Origin: Acidobacteriota bacterium
Lineage (GTDB): Bacteria; Acidobacteriota; Terriglobia; Bryobacterales; Bryobacteraceae
Assembly: GCA_025353165.1 (NCBI GenBank)
Contig: JANXRE010000048.1
Coordinates: 1 to 64,000, forward strand
Direction: 5' to 3'
Length of the DNA stretch: 64,000 bases
A model generated the notes under the pieces. The model saw nothing but the letters and a program-made list of their open reading frames with translations, was not told the DNA's origin and searched no databases. This document shows, in pieces, positions 9,487 to 54,524 of the stretch (position 1 is its first letter; every line of letters starts with the position of its first letter). A program made the translations under genes and the position numbers.

Positions 9487-10380
9487 CTATTGCTTGGCGG
9501 CCAACGCGCGGGCCTTGCGCAATTCGCGGCGGGACTGCTCGGCGAGGCCGGTTTTGGCCAGCGCGCGGGCCAGTTGGAAGTGCGCCTCCGACTTGCCGGG
9601 CAGCAGTTCCACGGCGCGGCGGAGCGCGCGCAGGGCCTCGGCGTCCTTACCCTGGCCTTGCAGCGCGATGCCGAGCGCGAGGTACGGTTCGCCGTAGGAA
9701 GGCGTGCAGAGGATCGCCTTGCGGTAGGAGTCCGCGGCGGCTTGGGAGCGGTCCGCCCAGCGGTCGGTCTCGCCCAGGTAGTAGAGGGCGGGAGCGTAGC
9801 ACGGGTTCAATGCGAGTTCGTCGCGCAACCATTTCCGCGCTTCGACGTCGTCGTGCTGTTTCAGGTAGAGCAGCGCGATGGAGAATTTGACGTCGGGCAG
9901 AGCCGGATCGGTCTGGGCGGCCTTTTTGAACTCGGCGAGGGCTTGCTGGTCGTTCCCTTGGGCTTGGTGGGCGGTAGCGAGTAGTTTGTGGACGAGGGCG
10001 GAATTCGGGTATTGCCGCAACAGATCGGAGAAGGCCTGTTCCGCCGCGGGGCCCTTCCCGGATTTGCGGTAGGTCTCTTCGAGGAAGAACAGAATTCGTT
10101 CGGCGTATTCGGGATTGGAGCGGAGGGGCTCGAGTTCGTCCGCGGCTTGGGGGAACTGGTTCAGCTCGTAATGAGAAACGCCGATTAAGAAGCGGGCTTG
10201 GATCGCGAGGGCGGGGTTTGCGAGGGAGGATTCGAGGAGGGGGAGCGCGTCGGCGTAGCGCCCGGATTTCACGTAGGCCAGCCCGAGGTTGAAAGCGGTT
10301 TTGACGTCGGGCTGGGCGCTGAGGCAACTAGCGCATGCCAGCAGCAGAGCCAGGCGTCGCCAGGAGTGGCGACGCGGCAC
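9487..10380 (-). CDS. Secreted tetratricopeptide-repeat protein
   Basis: 297 residues from GTG 10380. The N-terminus MPRRHSWRR plus LALLLACASCLSAQ is a good signal peptide (basic n-region, hydrophobic core, cleavage after SAQ; the Cys residues could also make a lipobox). The rest is about seven TPR units (e.g. AFNLGLAYVKSGRYADALPL, EAHFQLARALAKTGLAEQS). A longer in-frame ORF reaches 10527, but it would run through the antisense of the small membrane gene and the repeat. Codons for MPRRHSWRR lie inside the dispersed palindromic repeat, so the repeat appears to supply start codon and n-region. TPRs mediate protein binding; no partner is evident. Confidence 0.75.
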   Translation of the reverse strand: MPRRHSWRRLALLLACASCLSAQPDVKTAFNLGLAYVKSGRYADALPLLESSLANPALAIQARFLIGVSHYELNQFPQAADELEPLRSNPEYAERILFFLEETYRKSGKGPAAEQAFSDLLRQYPNSALVHKLLATAHQAQGNDQQALAEFKKAAQTDPALPDVKFSIALLYLKQHDDVEARKWLRDELALNPCYAPALYYLGETDRWADRSQAAADSYRKAILCTPSYGEPYLALGIALQGQGKDAEALRALRRAVELLPGKSEAHFQLARALAKTGLAEQSRRELRKARALAAKQ

Positions 10381-10400
10381 GCACGAGTGCGTGCGCCACG
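10354..10400. repeat. Dispersed palindromic repeat, complete copy
   Basis: Stem A is GCGTCGCCA (10354-10362), loop GGAG, TGGCGACGC (10367-10375), a perfect 9-bp hairpin. Stem B is GCACGCAC (10377-10384), loop GA, GTGCGTGC (10387-10394), followed by GCCACG. It overlaps the 5' end of the TPR gene on the minus strand. Confidence 0.9.
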
Positions 10401-44929: not shown

Positions 44930-44968
44930 ACGCACGAGTGCGTGCCGCGTCGCCACTCCTGGCGACGC
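44930..44968. repeat. Dispersed palindromic repeat, reverse orientation, truncated
   Basis: CGCACGAGTGCGTGCCGCGTCGCC continued by ACTCCTGGCGACGCC: stem B is shortened and stem A is complete (GCGTCGCCA-ctcc-TGGCGACGC). It is flanked by decayed genes on both sides. Confidence 0.8.
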
Positions 44969-44991
44969 CGTGCTGCTACAATCGACCCACC

Positions 44992-46314: not shown

Positions 46315-46409
46315 CGCTCCTATTCTATCTTTCTCCGTGCGGCGGCCCCCAGGTCGCCCTTGGACCGTTTTCTTGACTTCTTTCTGATATATATTTAGGT
46401 GGAATCCGC

Positions 46410-46841
46410 TGGCTGAAGCCTTGGCGAAAGATGGGCGGAACAGCCCCAAGCACGGACTGTCCGGAGCATTCACCGTCCTCCCCCACGAGGACCAGGACGA
46501 ATTCGACATCCTGATCGCCTGCCTTCGCGACGAATCCCACCCCGCCACCCAGCACGAATCGTGTACGCTCGCGCTGGATGGTGGCCAGGGCGCGGGCGCC
46601 TCCGGACAGGAGCTTGGCGGCGATGAATCGGTCGGGGTCTTCCTGGAGAGGGGACGGACGGGTGTGTCCACTCCGCAAAATACGCTCCGGGACACACTCG
46701 TCCGTCCCCACCATCGTCTCCAGCATCTGGTCGAAGATGGCAGTTTCGAGGCGGCGGGCGCGGGGCGAGACGCCAGCGGGATTCGGCCATCAGCTCGGTG
46801 AGGAAACGAAACGAACCCAAAATTCTACACCGCCCCGGTGA
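46410..46841. pseudogene. Conserved hypothetical gene split by an internal inversion
   Basis: The plus strand (to 46561) encodes an N-terminal half: RNSPKHGLSGAFTVLPHEDQ, DEFDILIACLRDES and ATQHES. The next about 247 bp (46562-46808) encode on the minus strand what looks like the matching C-terminal half: RFLTELMAESRWRLA, ARRLETAIFDQMLETMVG, DRFIAAKLLSGGARALATIQ. Flipping that block restores HES-RFLTELMAESRWRL in frame and, at the other end, IQRERT-KRTQNSTPPR-stop at 46841. One extra C in a C run breaks the flipped half. From memory these halves belong together in a hypothetical family ('HGL...VVLPHED...ARWR...ETAIFDQML') frequent in Bryobacterales. Confidence 0.6.
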
Positions 46842-46859
46842 GAACCTGGCCCTGAGGCT

Positions 46860-47187
46860 CTAGCGAGCCACCCGCAGGCATTCGATGTCGTACTTGGGGA
46901 TCTCACTGTCGGTGGTCATCAGCGTCAGTTGCTCGGCCTTGGCCTGGGCGATCAGGGCGCGGTCAAACGGGTCCAGGTGAATCGCTTCGAGCGCCTCCAG
47001 CCACCACGCGCGCGGATCGCCGGCGTCGAGTTTGCCTTTCATGCTCTTTGAGCAGCACCTCCCAATAAGAGATCCCGCTCAGATAACGCGGCCCGGATTC
47101 GAGTGTCCGGCGCACCCTGGATGGGGTTCGCTCGGGCAACGCCAGACCAAGCAGCGCCACATTCGTGTCCAGAAGGTATCCGTTCAC
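46860..47187 (-). pseudogene. PIN-domain toxin, frameshifted
   Basis: A GTG start at 47187 begins GYLLDTNVALLGLALPERTP with the first PIN Asp, then SGISYWEVLLK. Near 47048 an extra A shifts the frame. The other frame continues SMKGKLDAGDPRAWWLEALE and ends HLDPFDRALIAQAKAEQLTL, MTTDSEI, carrying the later acidic residues (DPFDRALIAQA). The start overlaps the antitoxin stop by GTGA, the usual arrangement. Confidence 0.7.
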
Positions 47188-47388
47188 AGGTAGCCCGCGA
47201 GGAAACGGTCCAAATCGACCGGATTGTCGCAGCCGGGCAACGGCCGGATCCGGCCGCCGTTCGGTGGGCGCCGGGGTGATTTGGGCGACCGGCTTCCCGT
47301 GCCGCGTGAGGACGACCTTCTCCCCACCCTCGACCGCGCGGATCAGCTCGGGGAGCCGGTTCTTGGCTTCGGCGACGGAAACATCCAT
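47184..47388 (-). pseudogene. Phd/YefM-type antitoxin, frameshifted
   Basis: ATG 47388 begins MDVSVAEAKNRLPELIRAVE and continues EKVVLTRHGKPVAQITPAP, a textbook Phd/YefM DNA-binding domain. Near 47265 the frame shifts; the expected C-terminal toxin-binding tail (RIRPLPGCDNPVDLDRFLAG, YL, stop 47184-47186) is in another frame. Because of this shift the antitoxin frame runs on into the PIN toxin frame as one artificial fusion. Confidence 0.7.
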
Positions 47389-47462
47389 AGCAGGACCCGC
47401 ATAACCATCAATTATGGCCAGATCAAGATTTGGGTAATCTAAGTGTTTGGACGGGAGTATCC

Positions 47463-49526
47463 GTGAATAATAACCGAAACTGCATTTTGGGATTGATTCT
47501 TCTTGCCGGCGCCGCGGCCAGCCGCGCCGACGAGGGCATGTGGACCTTCGACAATCCACCTGCGAAGCAGCTACAAGCCAAGTACCACTTCACGCCCACG
47601 CAGGAGTGGCTCGACCACGTTCGCCTGTCCTGCGTGCGCCTGAACGACGGCGGATCGGGGTCCTTCGTCAGCAGTCGCGGGCTGTTGCTGACCAACCATC
47701 ACGTGGCGCGCGGCCAGCTGCAGAAGAACTCGACGAAAGAGCGCGACTACATTCAGGACGGCTTCTACGCGGCCACCACCGACCAGGAGATGAAGTCGCC
47801 GGACCTCGAGGTAAACGTTCTCGTCTCCCTGGAGAACGTCACCGCCCGGGTGCTGGCGGCGTTGAAGGGCGCGCCCACGCCGGAGAAGGAATTCGCCGCG
47901 CGAAATGCGGTCATCGCCGGCATCGAAAAGGAGAGCCTCGACAAGACCGGCCTCCGCTCGGACGTCGTAACGCTCTACCAGGGCGGCGAGTACTGGCTGT
48001 ACCGCTACAAGAAATACACCGATGTGCGGCTGGTCTTCGCGCCCGAGGAACAGGCCGCGTTCTTCGGAGGCGATCCGGACAACTTCACCTATCCGCGCTT
48101 CGACCTCGACATGGCGTTGTTCCGTGTTTACGAGAACGGCAAGCCGATCGAGAGCAAGGACTACCTGCGGTGGAACCCGAAGGGAGCGGCCGACGAAGAA
48201 CTGGTCTTCACCGCCGGGCACCCCGGCTCGACGCAGCGTCTCGACACCATGTCGCAACTGGAATTCGAACGCGACATGGTCTACCCGAACGTACTGAAGC
48301 TGCTGAAGCAGCGGATCGCCATAGCCAAGGCTTACGCAGCCCGCGGCGCCGAGCCCGCGCGCGAAGCTGGATCGCTGATCTTCGGCCTCCAAAACGGGCT
48401 CAAGTCTATCGAAAACAGCTACAAAGGTTTGCTCAACCCGAGCGTGATGGCGGCCAAACAAAAGGACGAGACCCAATTCAAATCCCTGGTGACGGCCAAC
48501 CCGGAGTGGAAAGCCGCGTACAGCAGCGCCTGGGACTCCACCGCCGAAGCCCTTCAGAAAGCTCGCCCGCGAATGAAAACGCAGTTCTTCCGCACCCTGG
48601 ATTCGCGGCTGGCGGGCCTGGCGAACACCATTGTCGAATATGTTGCGGAGATCAAAAAGCCGGACGGTGAACGCCTGGAAGGCTTCTACGATTCGCAGCT
48701 CGAATCCCTTCGGTTCCGGCTCTTCTCATCGGCTCCGACCTATCCGGGGCTGGAGATGGCGCGCTTGACCGGCGTGCTGGAGATGGCGCGGGCGGAGCTC
48801 GGGCCGGAGGACCCGTGGGTCAAGATCGTGCTCGGCGGACGCGCTCCGAAGGATGTCGCGACAGAGCTGGTGAGCGGCACGAAGCTGGCCGATCCCGCGG
48901 TTCGCAAGAAGCTGGCGGAGGGCGGCGAAGCGGCGGTGTCGGCGTCGGACGATCCCATGATTGTGCTGGCGCGCAAGCTGGATCCGATGCAGCGGGAAAC
49001 CAGAAAGTGGTTCGAGGACAACGTGGAGAGCGTGACGCTGCGGGCCGGCGAGCAGCTCGGAAAAGCGCGGTTCGCCGCATTCGGAAAGAGTACGTACCCC
49101 GACGCGACGTTCACGCTCCGGCTGTCGTACGGTCAGGTGAAGGGATTCCCGATGAACGGCACCATCGCGCCGCCCAAGACCACGCTGTACGGCCTGTACG
49201 ATCGAGCCGCGAGCTTCGATTACCAGGGGCCTTTCTATCTGCCCTTGCGGTTCAAGGAAGGGCGCGACAAACTGGATCTCTCGATGCCGCTCAATTTCGT
49301 AAGCACGAACGACATCGTCGGCGGCAATTCAGGCTCGCCGGTGATCAACCGCAACGCCGAAATCGTCGGCCTGATTTTTGATGGGAACATAGAATCGCTG
49401 GTCGGCCATTTCGTGTACGACGGCGAGACCAACCGCGCCGTCGCGGTGCACACGGCGGCGATGACCGAGGCGCTAATCAAGCTGTACAAGGCCCAGCGGC
49501 TGGTGGATGAACTAATGGCCAAGTAA
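47463..49526 (+). CDS. Secreted S46-family dipeptidyl-peptidase
   Basis: 687 residues from GTG 47463 (GGGAG six bases upstream). The signal peptide ends near ASRADEG, and EGMWTFDNPP is the typical S46 mature start. The catalytic His is in LLLTNHHV (79/80), an Asp in YPRFDLDMALFR (about 214/216) and the nucleophile Ser623 in GGNSGSPVINR. S46 enzymes (DPP7/DPP11) remove dipeptides from oligopeptides in the periplasm; Asp/Glu versus hydrophobic preference cannot be judged by eye. It is followed 7 bp later by a sugar oxidoreductase gene. Confidence 0.93.
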   Translation: MNNNRNCILGLILLAGAAASRADEGMWTFDNPPAKQLQAKYHFTPTQEWLDHVRLSCVRLNDGGSGSFVSSRGLLLTNHHVARGQLQKNSTKERDYIQDGFYAATTDQEMKSPDLEVNVLVSLENVTARVLAALKGAPTPEKEFAARNAVIAGIEKESLDKTGLRSDVVTLYQGGEYWLYRYKKYTDVRLVFAPEEQAAFFGGDPDNFTYPRFDLDMALFRVYENGKPIESKDYLRWNPKGAADEELVFTAGHPGSTQRLDTMSQLEFERDMVYPNVLKLLKQRIAIAKAYAARGAEPAREAGSLIFGLQNGLKSIENSYKGLLNPSVMAAKQKDETQFKSLVTANPEWKAAYSSAWDSTAEALQKARPRMKTQFFRTLDSRLAGLANTIVEYVAEIKKPDGERLEGFYDSQLESLRFRLFSSAPTYPGLEMARLTGVLEMARAELGPEDPWVKIVLGGRAPKDVATELVSGTKLADPAVRKKLAEGGEAAVSASDDPMIVLARKLDPMQRETRKWFEDNVESVTLRAGEQLGKARFAAFGKSTYPDATFTLRLSYGQVKGFPMNGTIAPPKTTLYGLYDRAASFDYQGPFYLPLRFKEGRDKLDLSMPLNFVSTNDIVGGNSGSPVINRNAEIVGLIFDGNIESLVGHFVYDGETNRAVAVHTAAMTEALIKLYKAQRLVDELMAK

Positions 49527-49533
49527 AAAACCA

Positions 49534-50637
49534 ATGCTGAATCACGCTCCACCGCCGCCCGCTCGAAAGGATTTCGCAATCGGCGTAATCGGCTCCGGAT
49601 TTATCGTCCGCGATATCCAGCTCGTCGCCTACCAAAAAGCCGGCTACAACGTTGTCGCGATCGCTTCGCAGAACCAGGCGCAGGCCGCCGAAGTGGCCGA
49701 ACTTCGCGGCATTCAGAAGTGCTACGACACGGTCGAGCAACTGCTGGAAGACCCCACGGTCGAAGTAGTCGATATCGCGGTTCCCCCGCACGCGCAGCGC
49801 GAGATCGTCGGCCAGGTGCTGCGGCACAAGGACCACATCCGCGCCATACACGCGCAGAAGCCGCTGGCCATGGATTATGCCGAGGCCCGAGGAATCGTGG
49901 AAGCGTGCGAAGAGGCCGGCGTGGTCCTGGCCGTCAATCAGAACATGCGGTACGACCAGTCGGTCCGCGCCATGAAGCACCTGCTGGACAGCGGCGATCT
50001 CGGCGAGCCCGTGCTGGGCACCATCGAGATGCGCGCCATTCCGCACTGGCAACCCTGGGTTCAAGATTACGGCAAGGTGACGCTGCTCGCGATGAGCATC
50101 CACCACCTGGACACGTTTCGCTACTGGTTCGGGAATCCCGGCGCGGTCTATGCCAGCGCTTGCAAGGATCCCCGCACGAAATTCGAACACCGCGACGGCA
50201 TCGTACTATCGATTCTGGAGTACGACAACGGACTGCGCGCTTCCGCCTGGGACGACGTGTGGACCGGTCCGGCGCGCGAGGGCGCGGCGTCCGAAATCTA
50301 TATCAAGTGGCGCGTGGAAGGGACCGATGGGCTGGCTACGGGCACCATCGGATGGCCCGGCTATCCGAACCGGCAGCCGAGCACCATCCGCTTCGCCACC
50401 AAGAAGCAACCCGACATCTGGATTGCCCCCGAATGGCCCGAGGTGTGGTTCCCGGACGCGTTTGCCGGAACCATGGGGAGCCTGCTCGAGGCGCTCGCCA
50501 CAGGCAGCGAGCCGGCCATCGGCGGCCGCGATAATCTGAACACGATGGCGCTCGTGGACGCTTGCTACCGGTCGCTCGACGAACATCGCCCCGTGCGGCT
50601 CGACGAGATCGCCGCTGATACTAACCAGGAGCTGTGA
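49534..50637 (+). CDS. Gfo/Idh/MocA oxidoreductase
   Basis: 367 residues. The Rossmann motif IGVIGSGFIVRDIQ is near residue 15, and the AQKPLAM motif corresponds to the family's EKP with Gln in place of Glu. The C-terminal domain has MSIHHLDTFRYWFGNP with the catalytic-side His. Likely a NAD(P)-dependent sugar or inositol dehydrogenase. Its TGA is immediately followed by the ATG of the TIM-barrel gene, so both act in one pathway. Confidence 0.88.
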   Translation: MLNHAPPPPARKDFAIGVIGSGFIVRDIQLVAYQKAGYNVVAIASQNQAQAAEVAELRGIQKCYDTVEQLLEDPTVEVVDIAVPPHAQREIVGQVLRHKDHIRAIHAQKPLAMDYAEARGIVEACEEAGVVLAVNQNMRYDQSVRAMKHLLDSGDLGEPVLGTIEMRAIPHWQPWVQDYGKVTLLAMSIHHLDTFRYWFGNPGAVYASACKDPRTKFEHRDGIVLSILEYDNGLRASAWDDVWTGPAREGAASEIYIKWRVEGTDGLATGTIGWPGYPNRQPSTIRFATKKQPDIWIAPEWPEVWFPDAFAGTMGSLLEALATGSEPAIGGRDNLNTMALVDACYRSLDEHRPVRLDEIAADTNQEL

Positions 50638-53751: not shown

Positions 53752-54524
53752 CCTGGTCCGCGAGCGGCTGCGCGCGGCAGCGGACGAGAAGTTCGGGGAG
53801 GGCCAGCGGCGATTCTTCCAGCACGAGGTAAACACCTACGGAGTGCGCGGGCCCGAGCTGAAAGCCATCGCCCGCAACATTTCCCGAGAGGTGAAAACGC
53901 GGCCGCTCGCGGCGAGGAACGATCTCTGCACCGAGTTCTGGAAGAGCGGAAAGCTCGCTGGTCTGCTACATCATACCGGCGTTTCGCGCGGAACTGTGGT
54001 GAGCGCGAAATAAAGTTATTGACCGCTATGTCCGCAACTGGGCGTATTGCGACGGGGTCGCGTCCTGGCTTCTGGCCGCGTCCATTGAGAACGAGCCCTC
54101 GCTGATCGGCAAGCTGCCGCCGTGGACGAAATCGAAGAACCGCTGGAAGCGCCGCGCGGCCGCAGTGGCGCTGCTTCAGGAAGCGAAGCAGGGGCGCAAC
54201 ACGGAAGCGATCTTCGACATCGCCGGGCACATGATGACCGACCCCGACGACATGGTGCACAAGGGCGTGAGATGGCTGTTGAAGGAGACTTATCCGAAGC
54301 GGCCGCGCGAGGTGGTCGCATTCCTGAAACCGTGGCGCGGGCGCGCACCGCGATTGCTGCTGCGATACGCGGCAGAGAAGATGACGGCCAAAGACCGGGC
54401 GTCCGTCTTAGCCCGTGATGTGGCGCACGCATGGAAGACGGGCGTCGCCAGGAGTGGCGACGCGGCACGCACGAGTGCGTGCGCCACGTCACTCAAACCC
54501 AACCTCGAGCAGAAGCGCCGATAG
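53738..54524 (+). pseudogene. DNA alkylation repair (AlkD-like) protein, frameshifted
   Basis: A GTG at 53738 inside the end of the MFS gene starts LVRERLRAAADEKFGEGQRR and TYGVRGPELKAIARNISREV, the AlkD beginning. Between about 53955 and 54020 the frame changes two or three times. The third frame then reads RYVRNWAYCDGVASWLLAAS, DMVHKGVRWLLKETYPKRPR and LLLRYAAEKMTAKDRASVLA, the rest of the HEAT-like glycosylase. It is nearly full length, and its very end runs into the repeat at 54441. Confidence 0.8.
54419..54489. repeat. Dispersed palindromic repeat: half copy plus complete copy
   Basis: A half copy GTGGCGCACGCATGG (from 54419) precedes a complete forward copy with stem A GCGTCGCCA-ggag-TGGCGACGC and stem B GCACGCAC-ga-GTGCGTGC (54441-54489). 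The complete copy ends at the stop codon of the minus-strand glycosyltransferase gene. Confidence 0.88.

Follow-up and report, generated by a model that had tools for sequence, protein, structure and literature searches.

The window analysed here, a stretch of 64,000 nucleotides from the draft genome of an Acidobacteriota bacterium (Bryobacteraceae), contains between 46364 and 46862 a damaged copy of a gene of a multi-copy protein family, the middle part of which lies in the opposite sense to its two ends. This copy is, with high probability, a decayed paralog (pseudogene) with a one-off 244-bp micro-inversion, probably caused by template switching or by illegitimate rejoining. Most probably we see here a molecular fossil rather than a working on/off switch, and the process that it records is ordinary gene decay. 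The first-pass annotation of this DNA had proposed a gene split by an internal inversion and had named a dead rearrangement as one way to read it; both proposals find support in three paralogs that are intact elsewhere in this genome.

The inverted block and its joints

The window copy was compared with the paralogs C95, C169 and C39; the next nearest copy, C101, is itself shortened and was excluded from the alignment, the identity counts and the block scores. Positions 46435–46561 and 46806–46862 align with all three paralogs in the sense of the gene, and positions 46572–46805 align with them in the reverse sense only. The left arm (46435–46561, plus strand), which is the N-terminal half in its native sense, is identical to C95, C169 and C39 at 110/127, 109/127 and 103/124 positions, respectively. 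The inverted block (46572–46805, minus strand) holds the middle part of the gene, and two parts of it could be counted: 46720–46805 (77/84, 74/85 and 74/85 identities in the same order) and 46572–46640 (59/69, 60/69 and 57/68). The tail (46806–46862, plus strand), with the last codons and the stop region, is again in the native sense, carries small indels and has 49/56, 36/40 and 50/58 identities. In the opposite sense, the arm, the block parts and the tail score only 14–24. The block as a whole scores 109–131 against the three paralogs when reversed and 18–19 as found, the best score among 1,000 dinucleotide shuffles, taken over the three paralogs and both senses, being 35. The reversed-only alignment and scores beyond those of the shuffles therefore confirm that the inversion is real in the assembled sequence, far beyond chance. 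Identity of the pieces to the three nearest paralogs ranges from 81 to 92%, the block and the arms being about equally diverged, and since no piece is identical to any of the three, none of them was the recent source of the block. Sister copies in the same genome suffice to prove and delimit an internal inversion.

Judged by the paralogs, the block ends at 46562 and 46805 (244 bp). At its left end, some 10 bp (46562–46571) have no clear match in the paralogs; they may be filler or what is left of the missing 3′ part. Across the left joint, the sisters have CACGA(A/G)(A/G)CG-TTCCTC, and the window reads CACGAATCG up to 46561, followed by TTCCTC on the minus strand from 46805. Because these sequences fit those of the sisters, the left joint is exactly restored with ends at 46562 and 46805. 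The first-pass annotation had placed the ends at 46562 and 46808: the left one stands, and the right one is about 3 bp off, as 46808 leaves a surplus codon (HES-RFL versus HE[A/T]-FL in the paralogs). It had also described exact restoration at both joints, which is correct for the left joint only. At the right joint, 141 bases in C95 separate the end of the block match (502) from the start of the tail match (644), and in their place the window has the approximately 10 unmatched bases, a net loss of about 130 bp. The peptide KRTQNSTPPR at this end belongs to a non-native frame; the native frame is NEPKFYTAPGENLALRL, and the native tail reads RNEPKILHRPGENLALRL in the window versus RNEPKFYTAPGENLALRL in the paralogs (in outline, in two of the three sisters). 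As (T)KRTQNSTPPR is shifted by one frame from the native tail, the match on the right is no evidence for restoration.

Inverted repeats, which a switch would call for at the block ends, were looked for up to 60 bp away from each joint. An exact repeat of 7 bp, not located at both joints, is the longest; inverted repeats of at least 7 bp occurred in 489 of 2,000 random pairs of stretches from the 40–52-kb part of the window, so that this length is within chance. Microhomology at the joints amounts, by eye, to about 4 bases at most (TCGT/ACGA).

Further lesions, gene family and neighbourhood

The damage extends well beyond the inversion. Upstream of the gene, 46364–46402 (plus strand) is the remnant of a leader common to the paralogs, TTTTCTTGACTTC..CTGATATATAT, with 90% identity over 31 bp to C95 and 89% over 38 bp to C39. 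By eye, similar leader sequences are seen upstream of several family copies. After the leader, the alignment shows the absence of 17 bp that include the ribosome-binding site and then of about 53 bp of 5′ coding sequence. A GTG (46399–46401) occupies the position of the paralogs' ATG, and its frame meets a stop after five codons. The frame of the left arm is open upstream without the native start, its first TTG being at 46421, so that a truncated product is just conceivable. With the approximately 130 bp missing from the 3′ part, and one surplus C in the block ('CTCGCCCCGC' versus the paralogs' 'CTCG-CCCGA'), the 5′ part, the 3′ part and the frame are all damaged, and the gene is intact in neither orientation. 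The surplus C is the frameshift that had been suspected at first pass; the losses of 5′ and of 3′ sequence and the hairpin described below had escaped notice. The copy thus combines homology along its length to intact members of the 'STGPKTPEGKA..NSTKHGLS' family with several disabling lesions (loss of the ribosome-binding site and 5′ end, 3′ loss, extra C, early stop and broken frames), as is expected of a pseudogene. The native frame is still open in the left arm and the tail, and the block is open in two stretches, so that the decay may be recent; the flip could have preceded the other lesions.

The locus belongs to the multi-copy protein family 'STGPKTPEGKA..NSTKHGLS'. A search of its own genome (G000, 200 contigs totalling 5.77 Mb) with the N-terminal piece gave 14 matches at E values of 10 or less, counting the window copy; for 13 the E value was 0.021 or better. 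The three full-length paralogs, C95, C169 and C39, of 195, 200 and 196 codons, lie elsewhere in the genome and are close to the window copy; all three show the unflipped order only, and their linker, 23 nt long, lacks the hairpin. Neither Pfam nor NCBIfam gave a match for the C95 copy, and two family members scanned against PHROG gave nothing better than E = 0.035. The family is present in 32 of the 61 related genomes searched, its own included, and exceeds 20 matches in three of them: G000 (22), G001 (28), the one genome searched that comes from another species of the genus, and G030 (53), for which contamination is given as 10%. A scan of named genomes with a close family alignment found no relative; with a broad family alignment it found two loci, both in one Acidobacteria metagenome-assembled genome, and these are the only named relatives found.

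Around the remnant, no recombinase was found among the Pfam-scanned ORFs between 44480 and 49523. On the minus strand at 46860–47400, a Phd/YefM antitoxin-like gene is followed by the halves of a PIN domain in two frames (the PIN matches being below the Pfam curated cut-offs), and 44480–44800 matches a short part of the GH130 profile, also below the curated cut-off. The neighbours of the remnant look decayed too, although base errors in the draft could produce the PIN and GH130 picture. A hydrolase gene and an S46 peptidase gene also belong to the locus. A dispersed repeat of about 40 bp, with the shared part GTGCGTGCCGCGTCGCCACTCCTGGCGACGCC, is found at 44930–44969, 10353–10392 and 54441–54480; searching the genome with one window stretch gave at least 42 matches beyond that stretch itself (40 of 258 candidates scored), and on C31 a copy stands upstream of a family gene. 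An orthologous locus was found neither in G001 nor among the 61 genomes searched with the window DNA. Window positions 47300–49600 gave no DNA match in G001; a hydrolase gene related to that of the window is present there (56% over 257 residues), and the 10 kb around it matched the window, by blastn and by tblastn, at the hydrolase alone, a comparison with little power for a diverged fragment copy. Six of the 61 genomes matched the window DNA, its own included, the other five covering no more than about 100 bp each.

A palindrome in the linker

Within the inverted block, the linker of the gene carries a 60-bp hairpin (46650–46709, minus strand) that belongs to a dispersed family of REP-like palindromes. 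Its arms are 20 nt long and 95% complementary, and its predicted stability is −45.5 kcal/mol (z = −8.06, plus strand). The linker measures 83 nt in the window copy versus 23 nt in C95, C169 and C39, an excess of exactly 60 nt; the remaining linker, however, is unlike that of the sisters, and a clean insertion of the hairpin is therefore not demonstrated. A covariance model built from four copies gave 11 matches, strands counted apart, at six places in the genome: the four model copies, one on C39 and a weak one on C182 (E = 0.005). Matches were obtained in 7 of 41 genomes, its own included; the related genomes G018, G020 and G021 yielded 26, 48 and 11, again with strands counted apart. The hairpin is thus a short palindrome dispersed in the genome, as REP elements are.

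Of the six hairpin copies, the five other than that on C182 have no GTAG in the 12 nt 5′ of either stem. PF01797 (Y1 transposase) is present in four of five genomes, including this one. A convincing hairpin adjoins 1 of 10 Y1 loci (L157) and a weak one is found in L154 (E = 0.17); beside the two Y1 loci of the window's own genome (L151 and L156) there is none. One hairpin copy lies just behind an ORF that by eye is lptB-like, and two copies adjoin terminase-like genes. Those two loci, L099 (C183:5500-13500) and L100 (C113:7500-14500), are the genome's only two matches to the ATPase half of the terminase large subunit. Each is adjoined by a separate ORF resembling the nuclease half (just under the Pfam cut-off on C183, by eye on C113), by a hairpin copy and by a relative of the window's gene family (by search on C183, by eye on C113). 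A further copy (C119:46180-46239; L017/L163) is in frame within an open gene whose product has a glycosyltransferase-28 C-terminal domain. That the hairpin had here entered a living gene without breaking its frame was considered and rejected as unproven, the linker of homologues being similarly long at that place.

Origin of the inversion and known systems

The preferred reading begins with a duplicate gene of a multi-copy family that would have been under little or no selection. Since the block ends are without homology, we infer that illegitimate rejoining or template switching produced the flip: two nearby breaks may have been joined end to end, or a replication fork may have switched templates, in either case with little homology. 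The strong hairpin near the centre of the block possibly favoured the event. A precise-looking internal inversion can thus be a lesion in a dead duplicate.

A special case of this explanation, not exclusive of it, gives the hairpin the causal part: the REP-like palindrome would have stalled replication and so set off the inversion. This hairpin has a very high stability, and its centre lies 4 bp from that of the block, 9 of 185 possible placements being as central. Yet this is a single case, the 9/185 is a weak figure looked at after the fact, and the flip may be older than the insertion of the hairpin; we regard a hairpin-driven flip as unlikely. Less likely still is the general form of the idea, in which the dispersed palindromes of this lineage are flip points, the present one having provoked an inversion of about 90–100 bp to either side, and small inversions are a recurrent by-product. 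If the hairpin did cause the flip, the spread of the palindrome would generate micro-inversions, which would go unseen in ordinary gene calling.

The inversion might also have been made by the assembler, pieces of different sister copies being joined in the wrong sense. A draft in 200 contigs, with 14 matches to the N-terminal piece (itself included, E up to 10), invites such errors. However, pieces only 81–92% identical to the three nearest sisters cannot have been supplied by them, the joints are well inside an 85-kb contig, and block and arms have diverged about equally, which makes an artefact very improbable. Least credible of all is the invertible switch also suggested at first pass, in which the block is turned by a site-specific recombinase, so that the gene is joined or broken, and this copy later gained a frameshift: the block is indeed bounded to within a few bases and the native frame is restored at the left joint, but the inverted repeats at its ends are no longer than chance, the 5′ and 3′ parts are damaged whichever way it lies, the three close paralogs are all unflipped with a 23-nt linker and no hairpin, and the scanned ORFs between 44480 and 49523 include no recombinase.

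A literature search on micro-inversions in bacterial coding sequences gave, among the titles listed, no paper on such a case, and one on invertible intragenic inversions in bacteria gave nothing, neither of which is a claim of absence from print; one bacterial paper (PMC7977185) contains a single mention of the word.

Papers on REP and REPIN palindromes, which TnpA-REP (RAYT) enzymes mobilize, include PMC8266576, PMC3116915 and PMC3733652; the first treats the GTAG motif. The window hairpin resembles them in being short, stable and dispersed, in a genome with Y1-type transposase genes, and in the 60 extra nucleotides of the linker. It differs in that its family lacks GTAG within 12 nt of the stems on their 5′ side (five copies), has few copies (six places) and shows a convincing hairpin at just 1 of 10 Y1 loci.

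Invertons are segments flipped by a recombinase and bounded by inverted repeats; PMC11892184 deals with them. The present locus shares with them a short segment reversed inside a gene; unlike them, it has end repeats no better than chance, no recombinase among the scanned neighbouring ORFs and no intact orientation. With an ordinary bacterial pseudogene bearing a small rearrangement, the locus has in common its multi-copy family, its several lesions and an origin that calls for no mechanism other than illegitimate joining. To our knowledge, small inversions of this kind are seldom noticed. What sets this copy apart from other bacterial pseudogenes is that one of its lesions is neither a deletion nor a frameshift nor a stop but a clean 244-bp inversion.
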